Shown here: positions 1 to 15,243 of the stretch, in pieces
Layout: each line of letters starts with the position of its first letter
Position numbering within the stretch: the first letter of the stretch is position 1
IMG/VR virus record: IMGVR_UViG_3300037847_003835
Location: 1 to 30,276 of that record
DNA: 30,276 nt
Reading direction: 5' to 3' (one strand)
Source of the DNA: a virus
Made by a program: the position numbers and the translations under genes
Notes under the pieces: generated by a model
The model's input: the letters and a program-made list of their open reading frames with translations, nothing else
The model's database searches: none
Told to the model about the DNA's origin: nothing

Positions 1-101
1 AAGAGATAAACATGGCTATAGGTAACGCATTTAATAGACAGGGTGGCACCGGATCAGGTGGGGGCGGTGGATCTTCTGATGGTACTATCAAAGAGGTAAC
101 A
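1..101. repeat. Terminal direct repeat, left copy
   Basis: The first 101 bases recur at 30176-30276 with one mismatch (A at 99, G at 30274). This is the expected signature of a circular or circularly permuted phage genome assembled with an end overlap. It could also be a very short true terminal redundancy. Joining the ends restores the reading frame of the 86-aa gene. Confidence 0.93.
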
Positions 102-272
102 TTTACAGATCAAACCTCTCTAACGATTACACACGATTTTGAAAATATACCGACAGTGATAATTATAGACACTTCTGGTTATCTCGTACATGCTGAGGTT
201 CAACATGCTACAAGCAGTCAAATATTGATAAATTTTTCAGATTCTTTGTCGGGGACTGTGATTATAAGATAG
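12..272 (+). CDS. Small tail-tip/fibre-type protein (86 aa)
   Basis: The protein has a short head, then a glycine/serine-rich linker (about residues 11-24), then a compact beta-rich domain ending in GTVIIR. That domain resembles the C-terminus of the 553-aa fibre encoded just downstream. Both contain the block LVHAEV followed by a (S)D(S/A)L(S/T)G turn and a hydrophobic last strand. A virion location, perhaps as a small receptor-binding or fibre-tip accessory, is inferred from this likeness and from its position. The start at 12 is the only ATG before the linker. The ribosome site (GGGAAGAG on the circular map) is weak. The gene is duplicated in part at the right end by the contig overlap. 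No enzymatic motif is visible. Confidence 0.75.
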   Translation: MAIGNAFNRQGGTGSGGGGGSSDGTIKEVTFTDQTSLTITHDFENIPTVIIIDTSGYLVHAEVQHATSSQILINFSDSLSGTVIIR

Positions 273-312
273 AATGGTATTGTCTTTTCAACCCTAACAC
301 AAGGAAAATAAT

Positions 313-1974
313 ATGCCATTTAATAACTATGCACCTCAATACATTTTTAAAGGACAAGTTCAATCGGACACTGCTCCTAGTAACAATAATGATCTAGTTC
401 GAAAACAAGATGTATCAGGTCTCTCTTTTATCTCTTCGATTGCTTCCGGATCATCATCTTATCTATCTGTTTCAGGTGGTGAGTTATCTGTATCATCACT
501 TTTGATCTCTGATGTACATGTTGACGGTACACAAACATCTCTAGCAAACTTTATATCCAACGAAGGATCAACAGCTGGATCACTCAAAAAGGGTGATATC
601 TTAGTTTTGACAAATGCAACAGGTGGAGCAGAAACATATATTGTTTCCGGTGCTGATGGATCTACTGCAAATAATTATACACAAATTGAATCAGGTCTTA
701 CCTCTGCTGAGATCGTTGCAAAACTTACAGGTGGTACAGGGATCAATATCGCCTCAAACGGTACGATCTCTTTTAATGGTGATACAGACGTTGTTTCAGA
801 AGGATCTACAAATCTATATTATACAGATGCACGATTCAACACTGCATTTGGTGGGAAGAGCACATCTGATCTTTCAGAAGGATCTAATCTATATTTCACA
901 AATACTCGCGCTCGTGGTGCTGTAACTGCTGCTGCGGGTGGTCCTTTAGCCTACGCAAACGGTATTTTTTCTGTCAGCATCAGTAACTCAGGTGCCTTAG
1001 ATTCAGGAACATCTCTAGGTGTAAGAGTTGATGACACAACAATAGGAATAACTGCCGGAAATCGATTAGAGTTTAAAGGTGATTCCGATAATGTTTCTGA
1101 AGGTTCTTCTAACTTATACTTCACTGATGCTCGTGCTCGTGCTGCATTCTCTGCAGGAACAGGAATCACAATCAGTGGAGCAGGTGAGATCGCATCTTCT
1201 ATTACTCAATACACAGATGCAAATGCTATAGCTGCTTTTTCAGGTGGGAAAGGAATCAATTTAGATAATGCTGGTGAATTAACAGTAGATTTTTCTGAGT
1301 TCTCAACATCAGACATTACAGAAGGCACAAAACTCTTTTACACTGATGCGCGTGCTCGTGCTGCTCTTTCAGCAGGAACAGGAATCACCTATAACAGTTC
1401 TACAGGTCAGATCGGTTGTTCCATTACTCAATATACTGATTCAAATGCTCGTGCTGCTATTAGTGCAACAGGAAACATTTCTTATAACTCCTCAACAGGT
1501 GTTATTTCAACAAGTTTAACACAATATGCTGATGCAAATGCTAGAGCGGCTGTTTCAGCTGGTAATGGACTTGATTATAATTCTTCTACTGGTGAATTCT
1601 CTTTGGATCTAAAAGCAAACTCTGGTCTTGCTATTGATTCAACAGAATTAAAAGTTACTTTAGGTGAGGGTCTTGGCTTTTCACCTGATGGATTTATTGA
1701 AGTAGAAGCTGGAAGTGGCCTTGAAATTAATAGTGGCGATCAATCTCTACAGGTTGATAAGACATATTTCAGAAAAGTTTTCTCTGCTCAATCATTTTCT
1801 GCTAACACTGCAAAAACAATCAATCACGCATTAGGTGAGAAATACGTTCAAGTATCTGTTTATGATTCTTCTGATAACCTCGTACACGCAGAAGTATCTC
1901 TTACAGATGCAAACAATCTTACAGTAACTACAAGTGATGCCTTGACAGGTGTTACAGTAGTAGTTAGTATATAA
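313..1974 (+). CDS. Repeat-containing tail fibre (553 aa)
   Basis: A long protein rich in Ser, Thr, Gly and Asn. Residues about 158-435 hold seven degenerate repeats with the core (L/Q)Y(T/A)DARARAA(F/L/I/V)SAGTGI. Such YTDAR repeats are typical of trimeric, beta-structured phage fibres, many from aquatic phages (recalled from family knowledge, not searched). The last ~70 residues (485-553) match the domain of the preceding 86-aa protein (LVHAEV block), suggesting a shared tip or trimerisation module. The ribosome site AAGGAAA lies before ATG 313. The gene is last in its transcription unit, with a strong terminator 57 bases after the stop. Most likely role: host recognition at the tail tip. 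The N-terminal anchoring region (about 1-60) is not one I recognise. Confidence 0.85.
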   Translation: MPFNNYAPQYIFKGQVQSDTAPSNNNDLVRKQDVSGLSFISSIASGSSSYLSVSGGELSVSSLLISDVHVDGTQTSLANFISNEGSTAGSLKKGDILVLTNATGGAETYIVSGADGSTANNYTQIESGLTSAEIVAKLTGGTGINIASNGTISFNGDTDVVSEGSTNLYYTDARFNTAFGGKSTSDLSEGSNLYFTNTRARGAVTAAAGGPLAYANGIFSVSISNSGALDSGTSLGVRVDDTTIGITAGNRLEFKGDSDNVSEGSSNLYFTDARARAAFSAGTGITISGAGEIASSITQYTDANAIAAFSGGKGINLDNAGELTVDFSEFSTSDITEGTKLFYTDARARAALSAGTGITYNSSTGQIGCSITQYTDSNARAAISATGNISYNSSTGVISTSLTQYADANARAAVSAGNGLDYNSSTGEFSLDLKANSGLAIDSTELKVTLGEGLGFSPDGFIEVEAGSGLEINSGDQSLQVDKTYFRKVFSAQSFSANTAKTINHALGEKYVQVSVYDSSDNLVHAEVSLTDANNLTVTTSDALTGVTVVVSI

Positions 1975-2030
1975 GAGTTGGTCATTTAGTCACCTTTGGG
2001 CTATTTGTTTTGACTCCAATACTGGTTAGG

Positions 2031-2058
2031 CTCCTCTAGACGATCTAGGGGAGTTTTT
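2031..2058 (+). terminator. Rho-independent terminator after the fibre gene
   Basis: A 10-bp stem (CTCCTCTAGA / TCTAGGGGAG, one G-U pair) with a CGA loop is followed by TTTTT. It separates the tail-fibre cassette from the early region. Confidence 0.9.
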
Positions 2059-2083
2059 CTTTTTGTGTTTTTTTATAAATAAA

Positions 2084-2115
2084 TGTTTACTTTTTCTAAA
2101 CATTAGTGTTATACT
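2084..2115 (+). promoter_or_regulatory. Early promoter with palindromic operator, copy 1
   Basis: The palindrome TGTTTACTTTTTCTAAACA (2084-2102) has perfect 6-bp arms, TGTTTA and TAAACA, 7 bases apart. A -35-like TTTACT (2086-2091) and a -10 TATACT (2110-2115) lie 18 bases apart, so the palindrome covers the -35 box and spacer. The same arrangement occurs at 4838 and, on the minus strand, at 15162. A protein bound here would control transcription start. The binder is unknown. Confidence 0.8.
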
Positions 2116-2147
2116 AAATTTACTAACCAAAACCAAAGGAGTACAAC

Positions 2148-2462
2148 ATGACCAAATTTATATTTTTATGTGAGGAGCATGGGATCACAATACAAACAGA
2201 TTCCTACTGTCATTTTTTCGACAATGCCAAAAACGCAGCAGAGGCTGCTTTTAAGTTGATGCAAGGAGGTGATACTACAGACTGGGAAAACAATGAACCT
2301 CATAACCGTATTGTCATTCATAACGGTAATCAAGATGATTTGTTAGAGATTGCAAATTATTATAGTTTCACACAATACAAAGAAAGATTTCACTTATTAG
2401 AGGCTGTATTTTATGAAGAGGTACATCTTGCATTTTACATCAGAGGTTTATTAAATGAGTAA
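2148..2462 (+). CDS. First early-region protein, unknown (104 aa)
   Basis: I do not recognise this protein. It is a small soluble protein with no membrane segment, rich in aromatic and acidic residues, and has two Cys and several His but no clear zinc motif. It is the first gene behind the operator-controlled promoter at 2084 and has the strong extended ribosome site AACCAAAGGAG (2131-2141). Its end overlaps the start of the replication initiator by 8 bases, so the two are translationally coupled. First-expressed phage genes of this size often encode host-takeover or anti-defence factors, but nothing in the sequence shows that here. Confidence 0.8.
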   Translation: MTKFIFLCEEHGITIQTDSYCHFFDNAKNAAEAAFKLMQGGDTTDWENNEPHNRIVIHNGNQDDLLEIANYYSFTQYKERFHLLEAVFYEEVHLAFYIRGLLNE

Positions 2463-3081
2463 CTTTCAAAAGATATATGATGAAGAGTTTTATCTAATGT
2501 TTGCTCTTCCTTCTCAAGCAGGTCGAGTTCTAGCAGGACTGTTAAAGCACGCACAGCATAAAGATACACAAGTCAAGAATGGATATAGAATCAAATCCTG
2601 TTATCCTTCTCAAACTTCTATAGCTGCTTTCTTTGGTGTTACAGAAAGAACAGTTCGAAAAGGTGTAAAGCAACTTCAGGATCATGGGTTGCTTGAATGC
2701 AAAACAGAAGGAAGAAGAAATATCTATTCAATATTTTATCCAATAGGTTTAGATAATTTACAGGAATATCTCGAAAAAATACAGGATCAAATGAACCTAT
2801 GTCATGACAAAATACAGGATCAAGTGTGCAATAATATAGGATCTACTGTGACACAAATACAGGATCAAGTAGGACAGCAATATAGGATCAAGTGCGACAG
2901 TAAAAAACAGGGGCATATCAAAAAACGGTTGCATCTGGTCGATACAAAAGGCACTACTGAACAAATGTCAAAAGAGAAAAGAAAAGAGCAATTAAAAGAG
3001 CATACAAAAGAGAACAATATTTTTAATCAAGATCCATTTGATATTTCAGATCTACAAGACTTTTCTAACTGGAGAAAATAA
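2455..3081 (+). CDS. Replication initiator, winged-helix, lambda O-like (208 aa)
   Basis: Residues about 10-100 form a winged helix-turn-helix. An SYPSQTSIA-like segment (CYPSQTSIAAFFGVTERTVR) is the recognition region, followed by KQLQDHGLLE and a beta wing ending in IYSIF. This is the usual layout of phage replication initiators such as lambda O and DnaD-type proteins. The middle of the gene carries five iteron-like DNA repeats (2779-2891), two of them out of frame, so the repeat is kept at DNA level and probably is the origin. The C-terminal part is polar, Lys/Glu-rich and AT-rich at DNA level. It overlaps the upstream gene by 8 bases and its stop overlaps the next ATG. With its neighbour at 3081 it forms an O/P-like pair. 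The proposed role is to bind the iterons, open the origin and recruit the host helicase through the loader. Confidence 0.75.
   Translation: MSNFQKIYDEEFYLMFALPSQAGRVLAGLLKHAQHKDTQVKNGYRIKSCYPSQTSIAAFFGVTERTVRKGVKQLQDHGLLECKTEGRRNIYSIFYPIGLDNLQEYLEKIQDQMNLCHDKIQDQVCNNIGSTVTQIQDQVGQQYRIKCDSKKQGHIKKRLHLVDTKGTTEQMSKEKRKEQLKEHTKENNIFNQDPFDISDLQDFSNWRK
2779..2891 (+). other. Iteron array, probable replication origin
   Basis: Copies of ATACAGGATCAA lie at 2779-2790, 2812-2823, 2834-2845 (10/12 match), 2857-2868 and 2880-2891 (11/12 match). Start-to-start spacing is 33, 22, 23 and 23 bases, close to two or three helical turns, which puts the sites on one DNA face. The copies at 2834 and 2880 are out of frame with the others, so the repetition is not a protein repeat. 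All lie within the initiator gene, as in lambda ori. A strongly A-rich stretch follows at about 2965-3045 and could be the unwinding element. Each copy contains GATC. Confidence 0.72.
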
Positions 3082-3728
3082 TGCAACAAGAAAAAAAACT
3101 TACAGAAAATCAAATAAAAGCAATCAATAAATTTACAAGTTTGATTTGTGCAAACTGGTCAAGATTGGATACTCAAGAATGGAGATTTGCATTTACAAAA
3201 CTAGCCGCTGGAACATTTGCAGATTGTGATGCTGCTGTCATTGAAAAAGCAGCATGGCATGTTCTCCAAGAGATTACTTCCTCTTTTCCTCCTTCTATGG
3301 GTCAGATTCTTAATAAGTCTAAAGAGATAATTGGATCGGGTCGTGCTAGAGTTGTAAAATTACAAGCATGTGAAAAATGCGATCAAGGAAAAAGATTGAT
3401 TGTTTACTGGTTGTTAGAACATGAAACACATAGACACGTAAAACATAACGGTATTTGTGCATGTGATTGTCAATATGGAAAGGCACAACAGAAGAGATTA
3501 GGACTTGAGAATATACATGTCTGTGTTGGTAAGATGCAAGATCATCCTCGTTTGATAAATGATCGTATATGGTTTCAAACTCGAAAGGGTGAGAGACCGT
3601 CTTTAGAGATCGAGAAATATGATATGGATAACTTCTATAAGTTCTGTCCACCTCTGGCTACTGATTTTAGAAAGAAATATGAACATGTACTTCAACAAAT
3701 TGCAGATGCTCAAGAATTTAATAAATAA
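3081..3728 (+). CDS. Probable helicase loader with zinc-binding region (215 aa)
   Basis: Residues about 8-85 are helical and include W-x(7)-W spacing and the motif FPPSMGQI, as seen in phage G39P/loader-type N-terminal domains where a helical bundle ends in FPP-x-x-x-x-I. Residues 97-130 hold CEKC and CACDC, a likely zinc site. The rest is basic and polar. The gene directly follows the iteron-bearing initiator and overlaps its stop, the position of lambda P. I infer that it brings the host DnaB-type helicase to the origin. No Walker A motif is visible, so it is not a DnaC/DnaI ATPase. An alternative reading is a general early zinc protein. Family assignment is by motif memory only. Confidence 0.55.
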   Translation: MQQEKKLTENQIKAINKFTSLICANWSRLDTQEWRFAFTKLAAGTFADCDAAVIEKAAWHVLQEITSSFPPSMGQILNKSKEIIGSGRARVVKLQACEKCDQGKRLIVYWLLEHETHRHVKHNGICACDCQYGKAQQKRLGLENIHVCVGKMQDHPRLINDRIWFQTRKGERPSLEIEKYDMDNFYKFCPPLATDFRKKYEHVLQQIADAQEFNK

Positions 3729-3735
3729 TTCAATC

Positions 3736-3764
3736 TTGACAATACAACGATTTGAGAGGATAAT
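3736..3764 (+). promoter_or_regulatory. Near-consensus sigma-70 promoter
   Basis: TTGACA (3736-3741), a 17-base spacer and GATAAT (3759-3764) form an almost perfect sigma-70 promoter in the 82-base gap between the loader and HNH genes. It has no TGTTTA/TAAACA operator, so it should not be controlled like the other early promoters. Confidence 0.75.
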
Positions 3765-3810
3765 ATACGAAACTATTCTCTCTTTCCTCTTCTGTAATCA
3801 CAGGATAATT

Positions 3811-4476
3811 ATGATTCAACATCGTATAGCTACAGCAATAAAAAAGATTGAAACAATCACAGATAGTATTAATTACTACGAACTTGCAAAGAAAGATCAA
3901 GAGGAGGCACTCGATAATCTCATTGCATCGTATTTGCAGGAATGCACAGCCGAAGAAGATAAGGAAGGTGTTTCTAGTCTTATCAGATATCTATATTGGT
4001 ACACTGATATTACAGCAATGAAGATCAGTGAGATGACAGGAGTTGATAACAGAACACTATCAAAGAGAGCCGGATCACTAATTCTATCTGCAAAATGCCA
4101 ACGATGTGGCTCAACCTATGCAAGAGAAAAAAAGAGTAGAACAGATCAAGGGTCTGCAATTTGCCCAAACTGTATACATGCCGATGCTTTGGATTCACAC
4201 AAAGCATTTTTAGAGGATTGGGTCGATAACTCATGGGCTACTCATAAAAACCCAAAGATGGATCAGGGAACATATGCAGCTTATCTTCATTCTGCGCATT
4301 GGAAAAAAACAAGATCACAAGCACTTATGAGAGCCGGATATAAATGTCAGGCCTGCTCTACCAAAGAGGAAATATTAGATGTGCATCATAACAGTTATGA
4401 GAGACTAGGATCAGAAGAGCCTCAAGACCTGATCGTTCTCTGTCGGACGTGTCACAACAAGGTGCATAAAAAATGA
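3811..4476 (+). CDS. HNH endonuclease with HTH and zinc ribbon (221 aa)
   Basis: Domain order: a helical N-terminus; an HTH-like segment at about 64-90 (SEMTGVDNRTLSKRAGSL); a zinc ribbon C96-x2-C99...C118-x2-C121; then a C-terminal HNH domain with CQAC (179-182), VHHNS (191-195) and CRTCHNKVH (211-219). HNH proteins of this class are metal-dependent nucleases that nick or cut DNA, and some phage versions aid packaging. This one is among replication genes rather than next to terminase, so a role in host DNA breakdown, recombination or homing is equally possible. An in-frame opening reaches back to 3619, but that would overlap the loader gene and cross the promoter at 3736. ATG 3811, preceded by AGGA, is preferred. 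The stop overlaps the next start (ATGA). Confidence 0.85.
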   Translation: MIQHRIATAIKKIETITDSINYYELAKKDQEEALDNLIASYLQECTAEEDKEGVSSLIRYLYWYTDITAMKISEMTGVDNRTLSKRAGSLILSAKCQRCGSTYAREKKSRTDQGSAICPNCIHADALDSHKAFLEDWVDNSWATHKNPKMDQGTYAAYLHSAHWKKTRSQALMRAGYKCQACSTKEEILDVHHNSYERLGSEEPQDLIVLCRTCHNKVHKK

Positions 4477-4820
4477 CTTGCTTAATATCTACAAAACGAA
4501 AAGAGGAAGATGGATCACATTCTGTATTATGCACTTGTTTATCTTGTGGATATAGTGCAAGGGTTGATTATAATTTTGAAGTCCTTATATGCCTAGCTTG
4601 TGGTGCTAAACTGTATAAAACAAAGTATTTATCACAGAAGGCCCTGAAGCAAAAAATCAAAGAACTAAAATCAGAACTACAGCAAGAACTAGACGCAACT
4701 GCTAAAACTGTTATAGCTGGTTTCTCACCTGCAAAGCCCTTTCAATCCTACAGAAAGAACAAACAACGATTGAAGAGGATCTCCGCTCTGCCAAAAAAGA
4801 TCAAAAAAGATAAGAAATAA
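4473..4820 (+). CDS. Small zinc-ribbon protein with basic tail (115 aa)
   Basis: Two CxxC knuckles, CLSC (about residues 22-25) and CLAC (about 39-42), form a likely zinc ribbon. A charged helical segment and a strongly basic C-terminus (KRISALPKKIKKDKK) follow. Such small ribbons usually bind nucleic acid or RNA polymerase. The substrate cannot be told here. It is coupled to the HNH gene by a 4-base ATGA overlap, so the two are likely made together. It is the last gene before the second operator-controlled promoter. Confidence 0.8.
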   Translation: MTCLISTKRKEEDGSHSVLCTCLSCGYSARVDYNFEVLICLACGAKLYKTKYLSQKALKQKIKELKSELQQELDATAKTVIAGFSPAKPFQSYRKNKQRLKRISALPKKIKKDKK

Positions 4821-4837
4821 TAATCTTTTTTTAAATA

Positions 4838-4869
4838 TGTTTACTTTTTTTAAACATTTATGTTATACT
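4838..4869 (+). promoter_or_regulatory. Early promoter with palindromic operator, copy 2
   Basis: The palindrome TGTTTACTTTTTTTAAACA (4838-4856) overlaps a TTTACT -35 (4840-4845). TATACT (4864-4869) follows after 18 bases. It is nearly identical to the 2084 copy and, in its arms and T7 centre, to the minus-strand copy at 15162. It begins the second early operon. Confidence 0.8.
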
Positions 4870-4892
4870 ACTTTTAACCAAAGGAGTAAACA

Positions 4893-5084
4893 ATGAATCA
4901 TTTTATAGCAATCGACGTTCAGGATAAAGAAGGCAATATAATCTTAACCTGTGCATCAATGAGAGTTGCAATTGCATATTGTAACTTGCACAACCTTCAA
5001 ATCATCGATCAGGATCTTGTACCTGAGTTGGATGATGATGGAGAGTTCACAAACCAAAACATCTTAATCATAACCGTACAATAA
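4893..5084 (+). CDS. Small early protein, unknown (63 aa)
   Basis: I do not recognise this. It is acidic, with a beta-strand-like start (HFIAIDVQDKEGNIIL) and a DDDGEF turn near the C-terminus. It is the first gene behind the operator promoter at 4838, with the extended ribosome site AACCAAAGGAG (4876-4886). The strong signals suggest high early expression. Fourteen bases separate it from the next ATG. Confidence 0.75.
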   Translation: MNHFIAIDVQDKEGNIILTCASMRVAIAYCNLHNLQIIDQDLVPELDDDGEFTNQNILIITVQ

Positions 5085-5098
5085 CCAAAGGAGCAACC

Positions 5099-5419
5099 AT
5101 GCCATTATTTCCAGATGAAGAACTTCCTACAATAGGATTCAGAGGTAATCAAAAAATAGTCATACCTCAAAATGTAGACTACATAAACAAATTAAAAGCA
5201 GATATTGAACAACTAGAAGAACAGATCGAGGTTCTAAGTCAAAAGATACCTGATGCAACATTTAAGGGTACACCTCACGATCTTCTGGTTCTTCTGTTAG
5301 ATATCAAATCTCTAAGTGATAGATTGACCTCAAAACAATCTCATCTTATCAGATCATTATCTGACAGATTACAATCAGAATCCAATAGATTAGATCGAAT
5401 GCTGGGGGTTTCAAAATGA
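5099..5419 (+). CDS. Coiled-coil early protein, unknown (106 aa)
   Basis: After a short N-terminal strand region, about residues 25-45 (NKLKADIEQLEEQIEVLSQK) and 60-100 have heptad-like spacing of Leu and Ile, so a coiled-coil dimer or oligomer is likely. There is no catalytic motif. It has the extended ribosome site AACCAAAGGAG (5083-5093). Its TGA overlaps the ATG of a hidden 38-aa membrane peptide at 5416. Confidence 0.75.
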   Translation: MPLFPDEELPTIGFRGNQKIVIPQNVDYINKLKADIEQLEEQIEVLSQKIPDATFKGTPHDLLVLLLDIKSLSDRLTSKQSHLIRSLSDRLQSESNRLDRMLGVSK

Positions 5420-5532
5420 ATATGATTGACTTTGCAAACGCATGTATTCAACATCGCACAGAAATATATACATTTCTCTTCTTTCTCTTCCTTATCTCTT
5501 CTCTTTTCCTTCTAGGAGCAAACAATGAATAA
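5416..5532 (+). CDS. Hidden small membrane peptide (38 aa)
   Basis: This short frame starts in an ATGA overlap with the upstream stop and ends with a TAA overlapping the next start at 5525. The product has about 18 polar residues and then one strongly hydrophobic helix (IYTFLFFLFLISSLFLLGA), with an ANNE tail. The double overlap and single membrane helix argue for a real, translationally coupled gene. Possible roles, as inference only: inner-membrane modulation, superinfection exclusion or an antiholin-like effect. The DNA under the helix is a CT-rich tract that also contains the ribosome site for the next gene (AGGAG), so a purely regulatory tract is the alternative. Confidence 0.6.
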   Translation: MNMIDFANACIQHRTEIYTFLFFLFLISSLFLLGANNE

Positions 5533-5869
5533 CCTTGATAGAAAAGAAATTATGGAATCTAGTATAAGAGCATTAGAATGTCAGTTAGAAGGCATTGAGA
5601 AAATAACAAATCAACTCTATAAGACTATTATTCACTATGAAAAATTATTATATGGCTATAGAACCGATGACTGGGACGTTGATAAATGGAGAAAAGCCAT
5701 GCTAGATAGAAGAGAAAGAATCATGGCAGATATTGAGATTGGTATTGATATAAATGAAAATCTAGATGAATATCAAAAAGAAAGATTTAAAAAAATGCTA
5801 TGGCTTTGCACAAACAAACAAGAGATTGATTTTTTAGAAAATTGTATAAGGAGATCAGAAGATGACTAA
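5525..5869 (+). CDS. Charged helical early protein, unknown (114 aa)
   Basis: Almost wholly helical and highly charged. Residues about 10-50 look coiled-coil (EGIEKITNQLYKTIIHYEKL). There is no recognised domain. The ribosome site TAGGAG lies 7 bases before the ATG. It overlaps the upstream membrane peptide and the downstream SWIM protein, so it sits in a coupled early operon. Confidence 0.75.
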   Translation: MNNLDRKEIMESSIRALECQLEGIEKITNQLYKTIIHYEKLLYGYRTDDWDVDKWRKAMLDRRERIMADIEIGIDINENLDEYQKERFKKMLWLCTNKQEIDFLENCIRRSEDD

Positions 5870-6263
5870 GCAGGAAATCATAGAACATCTTAATCAGTAT
5901 GTAGATCAGATTGTCGAACAACACAAGTTTGAACTCTTCTCTCGATATGTAAAAAGTAAGAAGGTCCAATTTGTAGCTTGTTCTGTTGCACCAAACTTAG
6001 AATATACCTACATGACAGGAAAGACCGTTATTGGTGGTCATACTGTTGAGATATTTGATCGAAAAGGTGGTAGAGAGCCTCAAAAAATGTCTTGTACTTG
6101 TGCAGATTGGTCTCATAGACTGAAGAAACAGCAAAAGCCTTGTAAGCATATATTCGCATTTGTTGAAAGATACCAGAGCAAAAGAAAGTACTTACTTGAA
6201 AAAGCATGGCTTATAGAGCAGAAGAAACTCAAAGAACTTAATAACCAAAGGAGAATAAGATGA
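5862..6263 (+). CDS. SWIM-type zinc finger protein (133 aa)
   Basis: Residues about 81-101 carry the SWIM signature CxC-x(n)-CxH, read as CTCADW...KPCKHIFAF. Before it is a beta-rich part ending in VEIFDRKGG, and after it a basic helix. SWIM fingers bind DNA or proteins and occur in MuDR transposases, Swi2/Snf2 helicases and some recombination factors. A single stand-alone SWIM domain in a phage early operon suggests a DNA-binding accessory, perhaps in replication or recombination. It overlaps the preceding gene by 8 bases, and its stop overlaps the next ATG. Confidence 0.75.
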   Translation: MTKQEIIEHLNQYVDQIVEQHKFELFSRYVKSKKVQFVACSVAPNLEYTYMTGKTVIGGHTVEIFDRKGGREPQKMSCTCADWSHRLKKQQKPCKHIFAFVERYQSKRKYLLEKAWLIEQKKLKELNNQRRIR

Positions 6264-6460
6264 AATACATTATTCATTTCACAACTGGATTCTACTTTTC
6301 ATACTTCTGCAAATCTCTTAGAGGTGCAAAGTTAGAAGCAGGAAGGAAAGCAAAGATTCATAACTTCACTGTAAATGAAGAGAATCATATCTATATTTAT
6401 GAGTTTGATGGAATGTTACCCATAGCATCTAAAACTATCAAAGGCTGGAAAAATCACTAA
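6260..6460 (+). CDS. Small early protein, unknown (66 aa)
   Basis: Not recognised. It is a basic protein with a beta-alpha-beta look (KYIIHFTTGFYFSY..., a helix with RGAKLEAGRKAKIHN, then HIYIYEFDG). It has the extended ribosome site AACCAAAGGAG (6243-6253), lying inside the end of the SWIM gene. Confidence 0.75.
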   Translation: MKYIIHFTTGFYFSYFCKSLRGAKLEAGRKAKIHNFTVNEENHIYIYEFDGMLPIASKTIKGWKNH

Positions 6461-6477
6461 AATCAAAGGAGAATAAA

Positions 6478-6741
6478 ATGAAACTCAATCTATACATATC
6501 TAAATTGATCAGATCTATTATCTGCAAGGTAGGAAGACAGGAAGCATCTAAATTGTTAGGGTTATCTAGAACCTCCATCTATTTGAGAGAATACAACAAA
6601 TTTAAAGATGATAATCAAATCAAAACATTAGAACCTATTTCAAAAGAATATTGCAAACTACATCCAAAAGAAGATCTTAGAGAGGTATTGATGCAAGGAC
6701 TACATTTTTATTTAGAAGATATTTTGAAAGACAAAGTATAA
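6478..6741 (+). CDS. HTH protein at the early/late boundary (87 aa)
   Basis: Residues about 16-40 (KVGRQEASKLLGLSRTSIYL) read as a helix-turn-helix of the Fis/resolvase style: Q-E-A-S, a glycine turn, then a recognition helix. The remainder is helical. Being the last gene of the early region, just before a terminator and the late packaging genes, it is a natural candidate for a transcription regulator, either a late activator or the protein that binds the TGTTTA-N7-TAAACA operators. That link is inference. The ribosome site AATCAAAGGAG (6461-6471) is a variant of the early consensus. Confidence 0.7.
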   Translation: MKLNLYISKLIRSIICKVGRQEASKLLGLSRTSIYLREYNKFKDDNQIKTLEPISKEYCKLHPKEDLREVLMQGLHFYLEDILKDKV

Positions 6742-6768
6742 CAATTAATTGTCAATCTCAATATAAAA

Positions 6769-6794
6769 GGCTAGATTTATTCTAGTCTTTTTTT
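6769..6794 (+). terminator. Rho-independent terminator ending the early region
   Basis: The stem GGCTAGA / TCTAGTC (7 bp with one G-U pair), with a TTTAT loop, is followed by seven T. It separates the early operon from the methyltransferase/terminase genes. No clear promoter lies between it and ATG 6808, so late transcription may depend on read-through or a non-standard promoter. Confidence 0.8.
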
Positions 6795-6807
6795 ATGGGA
6801 GTTCTTC

Positions 6808-8502
6808 ATGGCAGGAAAGAAGAAGAAAGAGAGTATAGGAGAATATGTAGATATTGATTCACTTGTTGAATGGGAGCATAACCCCAGAATCAACACAGAA
6901 GCAGTTTCTAAGGTTGCAAGGTCTATAGAAAGATTTGGGTTTGCTTCTCCTGTAATAGCACGAGAAGAGGATTCAATGGTGATTGCAGGTCATACTAGAA
7001 TTGCAGCTGCTAGATCTCTAGGATTGCAAACTGTACCTGTTAGATATATGAAACTATCGAGAACAGAGGCTGAACTTCTAGCAATAGCAGATAATAAACT
7101 GGGTGAGATATCAGACTGGAATGAAGATATGCTTAAAGATATTCTTACCGCTCTTCCTGAAAATGATCTTGATGATATCGGATTCTCTCAAGATGAACTG
7201 GATTCACTTTTAGAAAACATAGATACAGAACTACCTCCTGAATCTGATAATGCTGTTTATGATACTGATTATGATGATGCAGATAATCTAGACCTAGAAC
7301 GCGTGAAAATAGCAGAAGAAGGTGGGATCTATGCTGTAGGAGATCAATATGTTCTATGTGGTGATTGTGTTGAAATATTGCGTAGTTTTCCTGATAACTC
7401 AATAGATAGTATTGTTTGTGATCCTCCGTATGGCATCGGCTTTATGGGTAAAGATTGGGATCATTCTGTACCAACTGAAGAATGGGCTAGAGAATGTTTT
7501 AGAGTATTAAAGCCCGGAGGTCATATTGTTGCTTTTGGTGCTACAAGAGCAATTCATAGAATGGTTTGTGCTTTGGAGGATGAAGGATTTGAGATTAGAG
7601 ATATGATCAACTGGTTATACTTCTCAGGTTTTCCAAAAAGCATGGATATATCAAAACAGATTGATAAAATGAAAGGAGTAGAAAGAGAAGTTGTAGGAGA
7701 AGATAATAGACCAAAACCATCCTATATGTTAGAAATAGGAAAAACAGAAGCAAACACTAGAAATATAACAAAACCAGCTACAGAAGAAGCACAATATTGG
7801 GAAGGTTGGGGAACAGCCTTAAAACCTGCTCAAGAGCCTGCTATCCTTTGCAGAAAGCCGATAGAGAAGGGTTTGAATGTATCAGAGAATGTTTTGAAGT
7901 GGGGAACAGGTGCGATCAATATAGATGCTTGTAGATTTGGATATGGTGATCCTTGTTGGGTAGGTAGTCAAGAGCAATTGAAAGATCACAATGGTTTTTC
8001 TAGTGTATATGTTGATCCAAAATTGCCAAAAGAAAAAGCAGATGATTATTTTGTTAAAGCTCCTGAAGGAGGTCGATGGCCTGCAAATATATATCAATGT
8101 GCAAAACCTTCAAGATCCGAACGTGAAACAGGACTTGATGATCTAGAGAGTAAAAAAGGACATGAAGCGGTTCATAGAAAAGAAGGAACTGCAGGTCTTG
8201 AGAATCCGAGAGCAGGAGCAGGAAGAACAGCAAGCGAGGTAAAGAACTTTCATCCTACAGTAAAACCTACCAAACTCATGGCATGGTTATGTCGTCTTCT
8301 CACCCCAAAAGGCGGGATCGTATTAGATACCTTTCTAGGCTCAGGGACTACTGGCGTTTCTGCATCTATGGAAGGATTCAAGTTTATAGGTACAGAAATG
8401 AATCCTGAATACTGTGATATTGCTCTTCAGAGAATCAAACATGCAACAGGTCATGATATAATGAAGGTTGAAGGTGTTATATTTGAGGTGTCAAATGTCT
8501 AA
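6808..8502 (+). CDS. ParB-like domain fused to N6-adenine-type DNA methyltransferase (564 aa)
   Basis: Residues about 10-135 are a ParB/Srx-type domain with NPR (25-27) and GHTR (61-64). Residues about 175-545 form an amino-methyltransferase with DPPY (205-208) and FLGSGTT (509-515). Motif IV precedes the AdoMet-binding motif, the beta-group order. DPPY favours N6-adenine methylation. The ~300 residues between should hold the target recognition part, and a HPTVKP segment lies before the FxGxGTT motif. ParB-methyltransferase fusions are known in phages and prophages, often near terminase genes. Likely roles are protection of phage DNA from restriction or marking DNA for packaging. The ribosome site GGGAG lies 7 bases before the ATG. 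GATC is unusually frequent in this genome, so GATC is a testable target, but this is inference. Confidence 0.88.
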   Translation: MAGKKKKESIGEYVDIDSLVEWEHNPRINTEAVSKVARSIERFGFASPVIAREEDSMVIAGHTRIAAARSLGLQTVPVRYMKLSRTEAELLAIADNKLGEISDWNEDMLKDILTALPENDLDDIGFSQDELDSLLENIDTELPPESDNAVYDTDYDDADNLDLERVKIAEEGGIYAVGDQYVLCGDCVEILRSFPDNSIDSIVCDPPYGIGFMGKDWDHSVPTEEWARECFRVLKPGGHIVAFGATRAIHRMVCALEDEGFEIRDMINWLYFSGFPKSMDISKQIDKMKGVEREVVGEDNRPKPSYMLEIGKTEANTRNITKPATEEAQYWEGWGTALKPAQEPAILCRKPIEKGLNVSENVLKWGTGAINIDACRFGYGDPCWVGSQEQLKDHNGFSSVYVDPKLPKEKADDYFVKAPEGGRWPANIYQCAKPSRSERETGLDDLESKKGHEAVHRKEGTAGLENPRAGAGRTASEVKNFHPTVKPTKLMAWLCRLLTPKGGIVLDTFLGSGTTGVSASMEGFKFIGTEMNPEYCDIALQRIKHATGHDIMKVEGVIFEVSNV

Positions 8503-8959
8503 AGTTGGAAGACCGTTAAAGTTGAATGAGATTGTTATTCAAATGCTAGAGAAGGCCTACAGTCTCGGCATGTCTCCTAAACTAGCATGTGATCATGCCT
8601 CTGTTTCACAATCTTCTTACAATACTTGGATGCAAAGAGGAGAACAGGATCGTTATGACAATGAAGAAACCATCTTTGCAGATCTGAATAGGAGAGTAAA
8701 AAAAGCTAGGTCAAATCACGCACTTGCGAATCTTGCACTGATTCAGAAGGCAGCAAAAGAAGATGGAACTTGGACCGCAGCGGCATGGCTCCTCGAAAGA
8801 GTACACAAGGAATATCAAAAACAACCCGAGCAGATTGTAGAGGTTAATGTAGATAATAGACAGTTATCGGTTGTGCAGTTGATGAAGGAATTACAAAGTT
8901 CTGATGAAGAGATCAAAGAGTTGATTGCTAGACCTGTGATAGATCTAGATGAGGAGTAG
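8495..8959 (+). CDS. terS: Terminase small subunit (154 aa)
   Basis: The N-terminal ~60 residues are a helix-turn-helix of the terminase small subunit type: SLGMSPKLACDHASVSQSSY, with YNTWMQRGEQ after it. A long helical region and NRQLSVVQLMKELQ follow. It should recognise the packaging site and regulate the large subunit. ATG 8495 is chosen because GAGGTG (8485-8490) is its ribosome site. The longer frame uses a TTG inside the methyltransferase gene. It overlaps that gene by 8 bases. Confidence 0.82.
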   Translation: MSKVGRPLKLNEIVIQMLEKAYSLGMSPKLACDHASVSQSSYNTWMQRGEQDRYDNEETIFADLNRRVKKARSNHALANLALIQKAAKEDGTWTAAAWLLERVHKEYQKQPEQIVEVNVDNRQLSVVQLMKELQSSDEEIKELIARPVIDLDEE

Positions 8960-8962
8960 AGA

Positions 8963-9268
8963 ATGAATGCAAGTATAAAGAATGTTCATTTTGGTAAATG
9001 GTTGAATAGAAAGATAGGATCGAAAACGCACTTTTGCCAGAGGTTTGAGTGGAAATCTAGAGAGTTATTAAGATGGTGTCAGGGTAAAAACTTTCCGAAA
9101 TCGCCTGTATTATCTCAACTTCTCTACGATCTACATCTTCATATAGGTCAGGAATATACATCTTTACTTGCAGAATGTCACGAGCAACTTATGAAGGATC
9201 ACAAAGTATATAAATATGAACAGGAAAAAATTAGAAGACAACTTGAAAAAGAAACAGCAACTGATTGA
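8963..9268 (+). CDS. Small HTH-like protein between terminase genes (101 aa)
   Basis: The protein is basic. Residues about 8-65 could be a lambda-repressor-like HTH (GSKTHFCQRF, then SRELLRWCQGKNFPKSPVL and a Leu-rich helix), and a charged helix closes it. The assignment is weak. It lies 3 bases after terS and overlaps terL by 53 bases, so it belongs to the packaging operon. It may be a DNA-binding packaging accessory or a regulator. The ribosome site GAGGAGTAGAG is close to the ATG. Confidence 0.65.
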   Translation: MNASIKNVHFGKWLNRKIGSKTHFCQRFEWKSRELLRWCQGKNFPKSPVLSQLLYDLHLHIGQEYTSLLAECHEQLMKDHKVYKYEQEKIRRQLEKETATD

Positions 9269-10691
9269 GTATGCAAAGAATTATCCTCTTTCTGTTTCTC
9301 TTCTTTGGGTTCCTCATTGCCATAACTGGAAAGGCATAACAGGAGAACGGGATCGGGGTTGTGGTAGACCTATGAAAAGAATCAAAGGCGATCTGTATAG
9401 GTGTGATCATTGCGATATTACAGAGAAGAGAACATCACAACAACATTCTCTTCTCTCTTTGGGTTCTGAAAGCACATTGATATCAGGAGGAAACAGGGCA
9501 GGCAAAACAGAAGTAGGAGCATGTCTATCTGTCGCTTTTGCGAGCGGTTCAAAAGAGCAATATGTCAGAGATTGGTTACAACTTAATAACCTACCCCTTG
9601 ATCTAGTTCCTGAGAATCCTTCAACGGTGTGGTGTGCCTCTCTGAGTTACAAAGACGGTCTAGAATACCTCAGGCCAAAGTTAGATAAATATCTACCTAT
9701 AGGAACAAAGAAAACACGTTGGACTTCTCAAGATCGGGCGGTTGCTATTCTTCCCAATGGAGGCAGGATAGTATCTATGAGTTGCGATTCAGGAAGAGAA
9801 GGTTTTCAAGGTGGATCAGTCTCTATGGTTTGGATTGATGAAGAGCCTAATGATGAGGGTATATTTCATGAATGTCTTCTTAGGACAGTAGATCAAAAAG
9901 GAAAAGTTATAATTACAGCTACACCATTAAAAGGTTTATCTTGGATGTTTGAAAGATTTGTGGAAAATCCTGCAAAGGGTTTTGAGGTTGTGAAAATATC
10001 AGGTCTAGATAATCCTTATGTATCTAGTTTTAAGATGAGGAGAACAGTATCACACCTTACAGAAGCATCTCAAAGATCTAGATTGTTTGGTGAGTTCTCA
10101 AGTCAATCAGGCCTTGTATATCCTGAGTTTTCAAAAGATACTCACTTGATAGATATAGAAGAAATTCCAAACCACTGGAGAAGATATATATCTATTGACT
10201 TTGGTTCTTCTCATCCCTTCTGTGCTTTATGGGTTGCAGAGGCTCCTGCTGGTTACTACTCTTCTGATACTACTCTGATTGTATATCGTGAATTGTATTG
10301 GACAAATAAAACAACCATAGAATCAGGAAGAGAGATCAACAGAATAAACAAGCTGCATAATGAAGAGATACATTGGTATGTAGCAGACCCTGAAAGTAAA
10401 GATGGGCGTCTCACACTCGGGAGAGAATGCAATATAAGAACCTTGCCGGCACCAAAGCATCTAGGAGTGAATGAAGGGATCAATATGGTTCGAGAATATC
10501 TTCAGATTGATAAGGAAGGCAAATCTAGATTGTTATTTACTAAGGACGTGAAAAACACATTAAGAGAGTTTCGTCTCTACAAGTGGGATAATAAAAGCAA
10601 AAAGGATGTCGTGAAAAAAACAAATGATCATGCGATGGATTCTCTGAGATATGGAATCATGCAATATCGTAGAATGTTGGCACATAAATAA
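9216..10691 (+). CDS. terL: Terminase large subunit (491 aa)
   Basis: This is the packaging motor ATPase and nuclease. The Walker A motif is GGNRAGKT (91-98), Walker B is MVWIDEE (204-210, D208/E209), and the coupling motif is TATP (234-237). The C-terminal RNase H-like nuclease has ISIDFG (D328), VADP (D391) and NDHAMDSLRYG (D471, D475). An unusual N-terminal zinc-ribbon-like segment (C35, C49, C63, C66) precedes the ATPase. It may bind DNA or the small subunit. The length is normal for the family. The start overlaps the upstream gene by 53 bases and has only a distant AAGGA, so translation is probably coupled. Confidence 0.95.
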   Translation: MNRKKLEDNLKKKQQLIEYAKNYPLSVSLLWVPHCHNWKGITGERDRGCGRPMKRIKGDLYRCDHCDITEKRTSQQHSLLSLGSESTLISGGNRAGKTEVGACLSVAFASGSKEQYVRDWLQLNNLPLDLVPENPSTVWCASLSYKDGLEYLRPKLDKYLPIGTKKTRWTSQDRAVAILPNGGRIVSMSCDSGREGFQGGSVSMVWIDEEPNDEGIFHECLLRTVDQKGKVIITATPLKGLSWMFERFVENPAKGFEVVKISGLDNPYVSSFKMRRTVSHLTEASQRSRLFGEFSSQSGLVYPEFSKDTHLIDIEEIPNHWRRYISIDFGSSHPFCALWVAEAPAGYYSSDTTLIVYRELYWTNKTTIESGREINRINKLHNEEIHWYVADPESKDGRLTLGRECNIRTLPAPKHLGVNEGINMVREYLQIDKEGKSRLLFTKDVKNTLREFRLYKWDNKSKKDVVKKTNDHAMDSLRYGIMQYRRMLAHK

Positions 10692-10729
10692 GAGGACAAT
10701 ATAAGACCTTCAAAGAATAAATTATAAGA

Positions 10730-10735
10730 TATAAT
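10730..10735 (+). promoter_or_regulatory. Possible -10 box before the portal gene
   Basis: A perfect TATAAT lies in the 64-base gap before the portal gene, but no good -35 hexamer is found 16-18 bases upstream. The ribosome site TAGGAG follows at about 10744. It may be a weak or activator-dependent promoter. Confidence 0.3.
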
Positions 10736-10755
10736 GCACACAATAGGAGTATACA

Positions 10756-13700
10756 ATGAGTGATAATTATTTTGTTAGGTTATATAATGCTATATTGGGT
10801 AAGAGTTATGCCAAGCAAATAGAGAAGCCAAAAGAAGAAAATCGCGGTGCTAGTTGGAACAGTGCGGGCGGTGTCAATAATACATTCTCAGCACAGGTTT
10901 CAATGGATGCATTTGGTATACATGGTTATACTCATGCAGGTGTCAAAAGACTATCTCAAGATCTTGCAGCCTTACCTCTTCGATTGATTAAAGGGTATGG
11001 AGATCAAGCGGTTGAATTGATGGATCATCCTGTATTAGATTTGATTAGAATGCCTTCAACAGATGTAGATGAGTTTCTTTTCAGAGAACAGATAACCATC
11101 GATCTAGTTTTATCAGGTAACTGTTATATTCTTCTTCTCGGTTCTTCTGATCGTCCTGTCTCTATGGTTAGATTGCATCCTGAAGAGGTTAGAATCGTTA
11201 CAGATCCACAGAAGGGTCTTGTAGGTTATGAACATAATTCAAGCGGTTCTGTAGTTATGTATCCTCCTGAAAGAATCATACATGGTAAGAATGCAGGATA
11301 TCAAAAGGGGCCTCAAGCCTTATATGGTACAGGTGCAATTCAACCCCTTGCAAGAGAACTTGATGCTGATCTTAACTCTCAAAAACTTGTATCAGAAGCA
11401 ACCTCAAAGGGTCGACCTGATGTTCTTCTGTCACCTAAGGAAGATGGTGATATATGGAATAAAGAAGTAAGAAGACAGATCCTTGATCAATATAAAGGCA
11501 TGCAAAAGTCAGGCGGTGCTATGGTTATGTCTGGGCAGGTTCAAATAGATATGCTTCAGTTATCTCCTCGTGATATGGAATTCCAAGCATCAAGAACATT
11601 TGCACGAGAATCTATTTCGGCTGTTTTGGGTGTACCTCCTTCTGTTCTAGGTCTTCCAACTGCTAACTATGCTCTAGGTCGACAGCAAGCGGTTGAATAC
11701 TGGAGTAATCAGATTAAGAGAGGTAAGAGAATAGGATTGTTATTCACTCGTATTGCAAGACTATGGGAGGATGATCTACACTTCGAGCATGATTATACAG
11801 AAGTTGAAGCACTACAATCTGTAAGAAATGATAAATTGCTACGTGTTGAAAAGCATATCTTTTTCGGTATTTCTCCAGAGGTTGCATATGCTGCTGAAGG
11901 TCTAGAGTTCCCACGAAAGCAAGAGCCTAAGGATATAGGAGAGGAAGAGGATGAGAATGTTAGATATCTTCTTGATGTATACAAGGCTGTTGATTATGGT
12001 GATAAGTCTAATGCTCGGGCTGCTATGAATGCACTTCCTGAAGGAACACAAACAGCATTGAAACGCAAAGCAAAAGAACATAACGAAGAACATGGATCTA
12101 ATCCTAAGAAGAAGGTAACAAATGTTAATTATTTGGCTGTGTCTTATCATAGAGGATTGGGAGCCTATGAAAATAATCCTGCTTCTGTACGTCCTTCTGT
12201 TAATTCTGCTCAACAGTGGGCAATGGCTAGAGTAAATTCTTTTCTCTATGCTCTTCGTAATCAAAGATATAGATCTGGAAAACACGACACCGATCTTCTT
12301 CCTTCTGAACATCCTATGAGTGGAGAAGAAAAACTATTTGACCTGTTAGAAACCAAAGAGCTTCCTTACAATGTAAAAGGTTTTGATTCTGAATATCTAG
12401 AATCTATGGAGGTTGTGAATGTCCCTAATAATCCACAAGTACAGGAAGAGGATGAGATATTGAAAAACATTCTGGGAACTCCTGCAAACTGGAGAGACTA
12501 CAAACAAGCTCATCTGTTTTTTAATGAGAATCAGGACCAAATGAAAGAAGGATATTATATCAGAATAGGAAGAAGATTAGATACTGATGATATTCTTAAT
12601 GCAGCACCGGAAAAAGGTAAGATTGTAGTATTTAAAGACCTTCTCGATCTTGCTGTTGATCATCTCAATGGTCGATATGGTAGGCCACCAATAACAGAAG
12701 ATGAAAGAAGAGCAGCATATCAAGTTATCAAACAATACTTCGACGTAATCAAACAAGAGGCTCCTTTATTGCTAGATTCATATCTAGGTTTTGACAGTAA
12801 AAAAAAAGATGATGAAGAACTCACCAACTTCCCAAAGAGAGGAGACAATAAAAAGATCAGTCTCAGAAACTCCCAATACCGGACTTTTGACCCTGATTAT
12901 GCTGAAAAACTTAAAATAAACTATCCTTCTATATGGAGAGCAGGCGGTAACATAAGAGGTAATGAACAGTATAAAAAACTTAGACCTATAGCAAAAAGAG
13001 GTGGAGTTCCTGAAGGATTATCAGAAGAACGTGCAATCAAACTTAGAGAAGCATGGATCGCTCGACATCTCAAAGATGGTTCTCAGTTTTCGGATGCTGA
13101 TCACCCTGTAAACCTGTCAACGATTGCCGGAATAGTTGCACAGATCAAATGGTTAGCAATCGGGTCTATAGGTCAGAGCAAAATGAAAAAGGTTATCAAT
13201 CAGATGAAAAAAAAGATTGATGCTTCAAAGAAGGAAGAGAGAGCAAAGAAAAGATACTGGAATAGATGGGTGAAAAACTCACAAGGAAAAGCAGAGAAGG
13301 AATTGCTGAGAAGATTCAAGAGTTATCTAACTGCTGCAAAGAAGAGATATGCAAAAAGAATAGAAAAGATTGATAGTCAAGAGAAGTCCTTAATTGTCGA
13401 TAGAGAAACCTTTTTGGCAATACAAGAAGAGAGACAGGAACTTGATCGGGCTGTTGGTGATACATGGCTAAAATGGTGGATGCTTACAGGAAATCAACAA
13501 CTAGATGATCTTTATAACAGAGCAGGAAAAGAAAGACCTTTGGATCTTGTTTTTGGTAATCGTGACTATGCAAGGCAGTTATGGAATGATTCAGTTCAAG
13601 ATATAACAACTAGCACAGGAAGATCGATCATGTCTGTAGTTGAAAAAGGTCTTGAGAATGGATTATCCACAAGAGCAATAGCACAGAATCTAGTAGATAC

Positions 13701-14031: not shown

Positions 14032-14631
14032 TTATCCTATTTTATATTCTTTTTTCAGTTTGCTAGGAACAATGCCACCAAAAGAATCATAGTTTTTTAA
14101 TATTGCCTTAACGGATTCACGATCTAGGATGTACTTGCTTTTAAAGTAAGAGGAAATACTTGTATAAGGTTGTCTGTAATTCTTTTTGATGTATTGTAAT
14201 TCTTTTTGCCAGTTATCAGATCCTACAACTAGAATATCTTTAGGGAAATCTTCACCACGATACACATATAAACCAAGACCATGTCTAGCAATCGCCTTTG
14301 TAATACATCTCTGAATCGTTGTTATCACATCCTGACTAGTGAGATCTTTTACTGGTATAGATTTATTGTAGTGATTTGTTATTGCTAGATATTCAATGTG
14401 TTCTATGTCGTTAATTTGAACTCCTGCTTTAATCCAAGCTGTTTTATTATCGTGGTGATAATTTAAACCGTCTTTATTCTCATATACTGTTGATTTTGCA
14501 TTTGGATAGTTTGAGATCAATATCTTCCAAGCATCTGCCCAAGATAGATATTTAAGGTTTGCGGATCCTTTGGTTCTTACAAATTCATCGCAATTGATTT
14601 TTGATAATATTTCGAATGTTGATTCTTTCAT
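14032..14631 (-). CDS. Sak3/DUF1071-type single-strand annealing protein (199 aa)
   Basis: The N-terminus has the family hallmark YLSWADAW (28-35). The C-terminal half has DVITTIQRCITKAIARHGLG (101-120), followed by LYVYRGEDFP, the pattern of Sak3-type recombinases (DUF1071). These anneal complementary single strands in phage recombination and repair, and usually work with an exonuclease, which I do not see here. The C-terminus (about 140-199) looks like an add-on and may bind host SSB or act otherwise. It is the last gene of the minus-strand operon that starts at the 15162 operator. The ribosome site AGGAG lies inside the end of the small gene before it. Its 3' end faces the portal gene's end with only 6 bases between, so the transcripts converge. 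Confidence 0.8.
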   Translation of the reverse strand: MKESTFEILSKINCDEFVRTKGSANLKYLSWADAWKILISNYPNAKSTVYENKDGLNYHHDNKTAWIKAGVQINDIEHIEYLAITNHYNKSIPVKDLTSQDVITTIQRCITKAIARHGLGLYVYRGEDFPKDILVVGSDNWQKELQYIKKNYRQPYTSISSYFKSKYILDRESVKAILKNYDSFGGIVPSKLKKEYKIG

Positions 14632-14634
14632 TGT

Positions 14635-14811
14635 TTATCTCCTATTCTTTTTCGATCTTTTTCTTTTTGCTTTCTTTTTATTGTATTCTTTTTCAGTTTG
14701 AGCTTTTCTAGGGTTCTGTATTCCTGAAGGAAGTAGCCCCCTACTTTTGCATTTATCGTCAAACTCGTTTGACAAGCACATTTTTCTATTAATACTGGTT
14801 TGATTTTTCAT
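14635..14811 (-). CDS. Hidden small basic protein (58 aa)
   Basis: This is a short gene starting at 14811 (minus) with the early-type ribosome site AACCAAAGGA (14818-14827). The product has two Cys near the middle (residues 12 and 21) and a very basic tail (KKKAKRKRSKKNRR), suggesting RNA or DNA binding. Its stop codon lies 3 bases before the start of the annealing protein, so the two are coupled. No family is recognised. It fills what would otherwise be a 230-base gap. Confidence 0.68.
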   Translation of the reverse strand: MKNQTSINRKMCLSNEFDDKCKSRGLLPSGIQNPRKAQTEKEYNKKKAKRKRSKKNRR

Positions 14812-14829
14812 GTTAGGTCCTTTGGTTAT

Positions 14830-14847
14830 GGGAGGGTAAAACCTCCC
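14830..14847 (-). promoter_or_regulatory. Leader hairpin between minus-strand early genes
   Basis: GGGAGG and CCTCCC form a 6-bp GC-rich stem with a 6-base loop, between the 74-aa gene's stop and the ribosome site of the 58-aa gene on the minus strand. There is no U-tract after it, so it is not a simple terminator. It may stabilise or separate mRNA segments. Confidence 0.4.
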
Positions 14848-14861
14848 TTGTTGATTATTGG

Positions 14862-15162: not shown

Positions 15163-15176
15163 TAAATAACAAAGAA

Positions 15177-15205
15177 TTGTATTATTTTTTCCAAATAGTT
15201 GTATA
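15177..15205 (+). promoter_or_regulatory. Weak candidate promoter for the head operon
   Basis: TTGTAT (15177-15182), 17 bases, then TGTATA (15200-15205). The head and tail genes lie downstream of a minus-strand operon and probably need their own promoter, but the match is modest. Confidence 0.3.
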
Positions 15206-15243
15206 TGGTGATCGCCTTTGGTATATTTGCAATGAGGATCTAT

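Follow-up and report, generated by a model that had tools for sequence, protein, structure and literature searches.

A small helix-turn-helix protein as the probable repressor of three operator-bearing early promoters in an uncultured 30-kb phage

The virus record IMGVR_UViG_3300037847_003835 of IMG/VR, a stretch of 30,276 bases that we refer to throughout as the window, carries three copies of a 19-bp dyad, TGTTTA-N7-TAAACA with a T-rich centre, each of which overlaps a predicted promoter. We propose, with a probability of roughly 0.84, that the three dyads are operators of an autoregulated early-gene repressor encoded by the phage itself, the 87-residue, XRE-like helix-turn-helix (HTH) protein hth6478 (6478-6741, + strand). 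The hth6478 gene lies within its own putative regulon, as the last gene of an operon headed by one of the three promoters and just before a terminator, which is the signature expected of such a repressor. In related phages the protein and the operators have changed together, and each phage or class would therefore possess a private specificity. A palindrome without a known binder thus becomes one half of a probable repressor-operator pair, in a group of uncultured phages that has no close named relative.

Operators and promoters in the window

A scan of the whole window for exact matches finds TGTTTA-N7-TAAACA at three sites, namely operator 1 (TGTTTACTTTTTCTAAACA) at 2084-2102 on the + strand, operator 2 (TGTTTACTTTTTTTAAACA) at 4838-4856 on the + strand and operator 3 (again TGTTTACTTTTTTTAAACA) at 15162-15144 on the - strand, in agreement with the original prediction made from the sequence. 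When the T-rich centre is included in the query (TGTTTACTTTTTYTAAACA, up to three mismatches), the same three sites and no others are recovered. Shuffled sequences contain a mean of 0.07 such sites and reach three in 0 of 100 trials, and a chance origin of the three dyads is therefore rejected. The bare half-sites, allowed two mismatches, give five matches where 3.5 are expected, which is not above chance, and so the signal resides in the exact dyad together with its T-rich centre and its position. The last ~98 bases of the window (30179-30276) repeat the first ~98 (1-98) with a mismatch near the end, an overlap that marks the record as a closed, complete phage map of ~30.2 kb, although an automated check reported no terminal repeats; the absence of any further copy at up to three mismatches, also claimed at the outset, therefore holds genome-wide.

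The hexamer TTTACT lies inside every copy of the dyad and is followed by a TGNTATACT box, as had been predicted, at spacers of 18, 18 and 16. The resulting predicted promoters are P1 (2086-2115, +) and P2 (4840-4869, +), both of the form TTTACT-18-TATACT, and P3 (15133-15160, -), of the form TTTACT-16-TATACT; in all three a TG one base upstream of TATACT provides an extended -10 element. They are of the host sigma-70 type, with -35 boxes that match TTGACA poorly. If TATACT is the -10 box, the dyad would span about -38 to -20; operator 1, for example, covers the -35 box and spacer of P1.

Operator classes in relatives and the protein that follows them

The relatives compared here are ~30-kb phages obtained by scanning viral contigs with the methyltransferase (MTase), large terminase subunit (TerL), major capsid protein (MCP), hth6478 and HNH proteins. 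They carry other 19-bp dyads in the same three promoter slots, and at least six natural specificity classes can be distinguished: class A, TGTTTA/TAAACA (the window, sites 1 and 2 of G007 and, with one altered base, site 2 of L024); class B, TGTTGA/TCAACA (three sites each in G006 and G019); class C, TGTTGC/GAAACA (three sites in G018 and two promoters of L037); class D, TGTTAC/GTAACA (sites 1 and 2 of G009, G016 and L032); class E, TGTATC/GTTACA-like (L023 and L034); and class F, TGTAGC/GCTACA (L025). All three slots can be read in five relatives (G006, G018, G019, G009 and G016), and each slot holds a dyad, which is fully common to all slots in three of the five and looser or hybrid at site 3 of G009 and G016. 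The claim that one shared operator defines a three-promoter early regulon is supported by these slots. Loss of the palindrome in relatives had been named as what would speak against that claim: the sequence TGTTTA/TAAACA is indeed not conserved, but the dyad architecture is.

Of 42 distinct slot sequences, with site-1 regions picked by hand and slots beside distant protease (<63%) or g4473 (<45%) homologues excluded, 31 form a dyad in which no more than one of the seven pairs is mismatched, as compared with 0.8% of shuffles. Sites within one phage differ by a mean of 0.62 mismatches of 12 (21 pairs), whereas a given site, compared across phages of unlike class, differs by a mean of 3.73 of 12 (88 pairs; lowest 0). 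Both arms of the dyad change in coordination, across the sites of a phage and with the cognate protein, and the concerted change of a phage's sites argues for one trans-acting binder per phage. The dyad lies over the -35 box in classes A-C and F and over the -10 box at the main sites of classes D and E.

Extra operator copies precede inserted genes in G016 (at 16639 and 23397) and L037 (at 2244). The G016 insertions (record L224, ~16639-17500 and 23397-23760) comprise genes for proteins of 236 and 81 residues, each with its own operator-promoter copy. Used as a scan query, the window's own 19-mer retrieved 18 stretches, most with unrelated flanks and only L005 and L012 matching genes of this phage group; a scan with class TGTTGTTTTTTTAATAACA retrieved 16 stretches, and an HNH-anchored scan yielded no additional contig in which a site and the HTH gene occur together. 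In distant phages (63-65% in TerL), namely at site 3 of G021 and G023 (L231, L235) and in L127, the same slot holds another shared element, approximately TATAAA-N7-TTTATA, which may be a comparable switch under a different regulator.

The gene for hth6478 was found in 17 of the 26 records searched (the others include several that are fragmentary or only distantly related), and it lies just upstream of the methyltransferase gene in the loci laid out. Its product is 97 and 93% identical to the window copy in phages of the same operator class and at most 56% identical where the operator is known to differ. Among 11 close relatives, with operator classes assigned by hand from the sites, identity is at least 0.90 within classes (7 pairs) and at most 0.73 between them (48 pairs), and of the genes present in at least 10 of these 11 phages hth6478 alone separates the classes fully. 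The area under the curve (AUC) for class separation is 0.50 for TerL (9 contigs), 0.57 for hth8963 and 0.59 for the MTase, and the portal gene too does not separate them. In a Mantel test over 13 contigs, hth6478 follows the operator with rho 0.44 (p 0.0012, the lowest p among 14 genes tested); the values for TerL, hth8963 and the MTase are about 0 or below.

The correspondence extends to the residues expected to read the DNA. Similarity at recognition-helix positions 30, 32, 33 and 35-39 is related to operator similarity when residues 1-28 are controlled for (partial correlation 0.67, p 0.0002, 13 contigs), and remains so in non-redundant sets (0.69 with 9 contigs; 0.63, p 0.002, with 8); these positions are better predictors of the operator than are the 28 residues before them. 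Two pairs of otherwise divergent proteins illustrate the point: G018 and L037 are 49% identical in hth6478, belong to the same dyad class and have in common an N30 absent from other classes, and L023 and L034, 44% identical and with nearly the same dyad, have in common an H35 absent from other classes. The more distant L034 and L037 entered the Mantel and recognition-helix tests and not the class-separation test, for which three of the five G016 sites were used (all five in the recognition-helix tests). Four contigs whose HTH genes and sites are nearly identical to those of G016 or L032 (L028, L031, L033 and L240) were left out of the Mantel and class-separation tests, and two with the gene and no promoter slot (L022 and L042) were dropped. 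Taken from sequence comparison, hth6478 is the likely binder of the dyads, and the 13 protein-operator pairs, 9 of them non-redundant, offer material for matching helix residues to operator bases.

An AlphaFold2 model of hth6478 (predicted local distance difference test score 91.5) has the five-helix fold of XRE proteins, and its structural matches are largely XRE proteins, including restriction-modification C proteins, Aca7 and HigA antitoxins, with Z scores of about 5.4-7.1, all under 8. The XRE arrangement is common, and therefore these fold matches are not proof of kinship. In 13 members of the hth6478 family, HTH_3 is matched in 3 (best E 0.0008) and HTH_26 in 2 (best E 0.0004), and the HTH_3 cut-off is passed in 0 of 10 records. 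No curated family names hth6478, searches of PHROGs and NCBIfam gave no match named Aca (Aca hidden Markov models were not searched), and tblastn of hth6478 against phage records gave no match up to E 1.

Several observations weigh against hth6478 as an XRE-type binder of these dyads. The protein itself has no Pfam HTH match above cut-off; its profile match in the PDB is CylR2 at E 0.007, and the XRE assignment rests on this match and on weak fold matches, the Foldseek E-values being weak (0.15) and the best Z score middling (7.1). Other genes also correlate with the operator, among them g5099 (rho 0.56, p 0.04, 7 contigs), the tail fibre gene (rho 0.48, p 0.011, 9 contigs), the HNH protein (AUC 0.99, 9 contigs) and g3081, g21308 and g24343 (AUC 1.00, with one within-class pair each), none of which combines similar coverage with a stronger case for DNA binding. 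The operators of L025 and L034 have a similarity of 0.86 though their HTH proteins are 41% identical. Class D is loose: site 3 of G009 is a class-C-like dyad despite a class D HTH protein, and site 3 and the extra sites of G016 are hybrid dyads.

Mode of action, rival readings and known systems

We envisage that, after infection, host RNA polymerase would transcribe the P1 (replication), P2 (accessory) and P3 (annealing-protein) operons. The hth6478 product, probably a dimer, would accumulate from the last gene of the P2 operon, before its terminator, and would come to occupy the -35 and spacer regions of all three promoters and exclude polymerase. Early genes would then be shut off, hth6478 itself included; its own operon has an inverted repeat in the core promoter, site 2 at P2. 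Binding, dimerization, repression and timing are all inferred. The placement of the dyad on either the -35 or the -10 box, depending on class, indicates that the constant feature is core-promoter occlusion and not a fixed activator position, and this, along with the location of hth6478 at the end of its own target operon, makes an autoregulated repressor the most economical mechanism.

The same placement makes it improbable that hth6478, once bound to the dyads, would act as an activator or timer of early transcription: a protein bound to a dyad centred near -29, or on the -10 box in classes D and E, should block polymerase. The poor -35 boxes would leave room for an activator, but extended -10 elements are present, and activation by a regulator whose gene lies within a target operon would need another start. 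Regulation from outside the phage, with a host transcription factor coupling early phage transcription to host physiology, had been suggested in the original prediction. Dyads of the form TGT...ACA are a common form of bacterial operator and the promoters are of the host sigma-70 type, but phages whose terminases are 94-100% identical differ in their dyads, and these vary in step with a gene of the phage. A host factor is very unlikely because it is hth6478 that follows operator class and whose recognition-helix residues predict the operator.

Of the three small HTH proteins originally put forward as binders, then, hth6478 is retained and hth8963 and hth21088 are not. These two, classed as HTH proteins by the original prediction only, and the replication protein rep2455, which has an HTH_36 match, are phage-encoded DNA-binding candidates, but they are rejected since their identities do not follow operator class. 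Thus hth8963 is 97-98% identical to the window copy in G006, G018 and G009, which have other operators, and 74% in G007, which has the same one; hth21088 is 90% identical in G018, where the operator differs; and rep2455 is 49% identical in L027 (same operator) versus 74% in L030 (other operator). We regard a binder among them as quite improbable. Least credible of all is a role for the dyads as iterons, i.e., replication or partition sites. One copy does lie near the replication gene, but each site stands singly at a set position in a promoter, the three being widely separated (2.1, 4.8 and 15.1 kb), and dyads also precede the inserted accessory genes of G016.

A more substantial alternative, though still an unlikely one, is that the phage is temperate or plasmid-like and that hth6478 is the immunity repressor of a quiescent state, not only a device for late shut-off. 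Operators and putative repressor specificity differ in step between relatives, as in temperate systems; the classes resemble heteroimmune groups (PMC6550527), and a single global repressor would govern all early units. On the other hand, neither PF00589 (Phage_integrase) nor PF00239 (Resolvase) is matched in any of the 10 genomes or records examined, of which several are fragments; searches of genome contigs turned up no close prophage, TerL having no match there and the MCP matching two contigs of metagenome-assembled genomes at 45-49%; and hth6478 shows no promoter of its own apart from that of the operon it would target. The phages may nevertheless be maintained extrachromosomally. These considerations raise the question of why seemingly non-integrating phages should diversify repressor specificity like heteroimmune temperate phages. 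If they do not lysogenize, the diversity of repressor classes needs another explanation, such as competition during co-infection. We put forward as a tentative and rather doubtful idea that this would be superinfection exclusion without lysogeny, in which the repressor of the first phage silences the early operons of latecomers of the same class and so drives the emergence of private classes. If so, selection would favour diversity in the recognition helix, and a natural protein-DNA code could be read from metagenomes.

As a candidate repressor of early promoters, hth6478 invites comparison with known systems. Cro and CI of lambdoid phages are XRE-like HTH regulators that act on dyads over early promoters, Cro being the lytic shut-off repressor; hth6478 is likewise XRE-like with dyads over early promoters, but here we found no divergent CI/Cro pair, no tandem operators and no lysogeny genes. 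The C proteins of restriction-modification systems are small autoregulated XRE proteins, and C.Esp1396I and C.EcoT38IS are the best Foldseek and tied-best VIA matches of hth6478; however, no restriction gene was identified among the proteins scanned, and the adjoining methyltransferase gene lies beyond a terminator. Aca repressors (PMC9410906) are small HTH proteins encoded downstream in an early operon that repress their own synthesis by polymerase exclusion at an inverted repeat in the core promoter. The arrangement of hth6478, with the autorepression proposed for it, is similar, and Aca7 is among its top structural matches (Z 7.1 over 61 residues, 15% identity), tied with other XRE proteins. 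Unlike the Aca systems, that of hth6478 would cover three separate operons, replication and recombination included, and appears to vary widely in specificity among close relatives; no acr gene was identified, no acr library having been searched, and the PHROGs, NCBIfam and fold matches place hth6478 in no numbered Aca family. In cluster A mycobacteriophages, one repressor serves many sites per genome and the site consensus and repressor diverge together (PMC6550527), as the repressor and site sequences do among the present phages. According to the same source, however, those phages are temperate, their many oriented stoperator sites are mostly not promoter-associated, and immunity also follows the repressor C terminus; the present phages have three (up to five) sites, all symmetrical and at promoters, and a search of 10 records for an integrase was negative. 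A described equivalent in phages without integrase was not found in the open-access PubMed Central literature, which is weak evidence of absence.

Genome layout and other control elements

Annotation with Pfam and PHROGs identifies genes for small and large terminase subunits, portal/MuF, prohead protease, HK97-type capsid, tail tube and tape measure proteins, along with a DnaD/HTH_36-like replication protein, an HNH protein, a ParB-N/N4-N6 methyltransferase, a Sak annealing protein and an endolysin-like protein. TerL is ~28% identical to that of the best-ranked phage record, and megablast of window positions 1-12000 against phage records gave no match. The annotation bears out the expectation that the three promoters head a replication operon, a second early operon and a remote annealing-protein operon, and the operators may thus serve to mark which genes are early. 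The P1 operon (2148-4820, +) follows a terminator-like hairpin (2028-2056, +) at the end of the late unit just upstream of P1 and comprises g2148, the DnaD-like/HTH_36 replication gene (2455-3081), g3081, the HNH gene (3619-4476) and g4473. P2 stands directly after it and heads the small genes g4893, g5099, g5525, g5862 (with a weak SWIM-like match) and g6260 (4893-6460, +), followed by hth6478. The genes of the P2 operon have no informative Pfam match and g4893 has no PHROGs match, no acr library having been included in these searches. A terminator hairpin (6765-6791, +; -17.5 kcal/mol, z -5.6) directly after hth6478 ends the operon and separates it from the neighbouring methyltransferase gene; the hairpin persists in all 8 relatives inspected, and in some of them both sides of the stem carry changes. 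The P3 operon (14032-15086, -), divergent from the protease/capsid unit, consists of g14862, g14635 and the gene for the Sak-type single-strand annealing protein (14032-14631).

A second dyad, ACAAT-N2-ATTGT, occurs exactly at 6741-6752 and with one mismatch each at 15169-15180 and 29731-29742, where the methyltransferase/terminase unit, the protease/capsid unit and g29774, respectively, begin. Within the window by itself it is no more frequent than expected by chance; exact copies stand in at least one corresponding place in G006, G016, G018, G019, G007 and G009, and it is possibly a late-gene control site. Upstream of the protease gene lies a conserved promoter-like element (TTGTAYATGGTGATCRCCTTTGGTATATT, 15199-15227, +), a candidate late promoter, which recurs in the form TTGY-N19-TATWTW in 30 of the 34 loci examined; of the four without it, L156 and L177 are faulty region extractions from truncated contigs. 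Many copies have a GATC dyad in the spacer, and one may speculate, given the phage methyltransferase, that this promoter is methylation-sensitive.

Genes with an ArdC-N (anti-restriction) domain stand first behind P1 or P3 in seven related loci, behind P1 in L225 (8557-8835), L220 (9152-9430) and L217 (10443-10715) and behind P3 in L223 (1649-1927), L228 (7121-7399), L160 (1684-1956) and L213 (3628-3900); none is present in the P2 operon of the window. The position of an anti-restriction gene directly behind P1 or P3 fits promoters that fire on entry. In the cases inspected the gene is followed by a GGGAGGG...CCTCCC hairpin, and these genes would appear to be movable early accessory cassettes.

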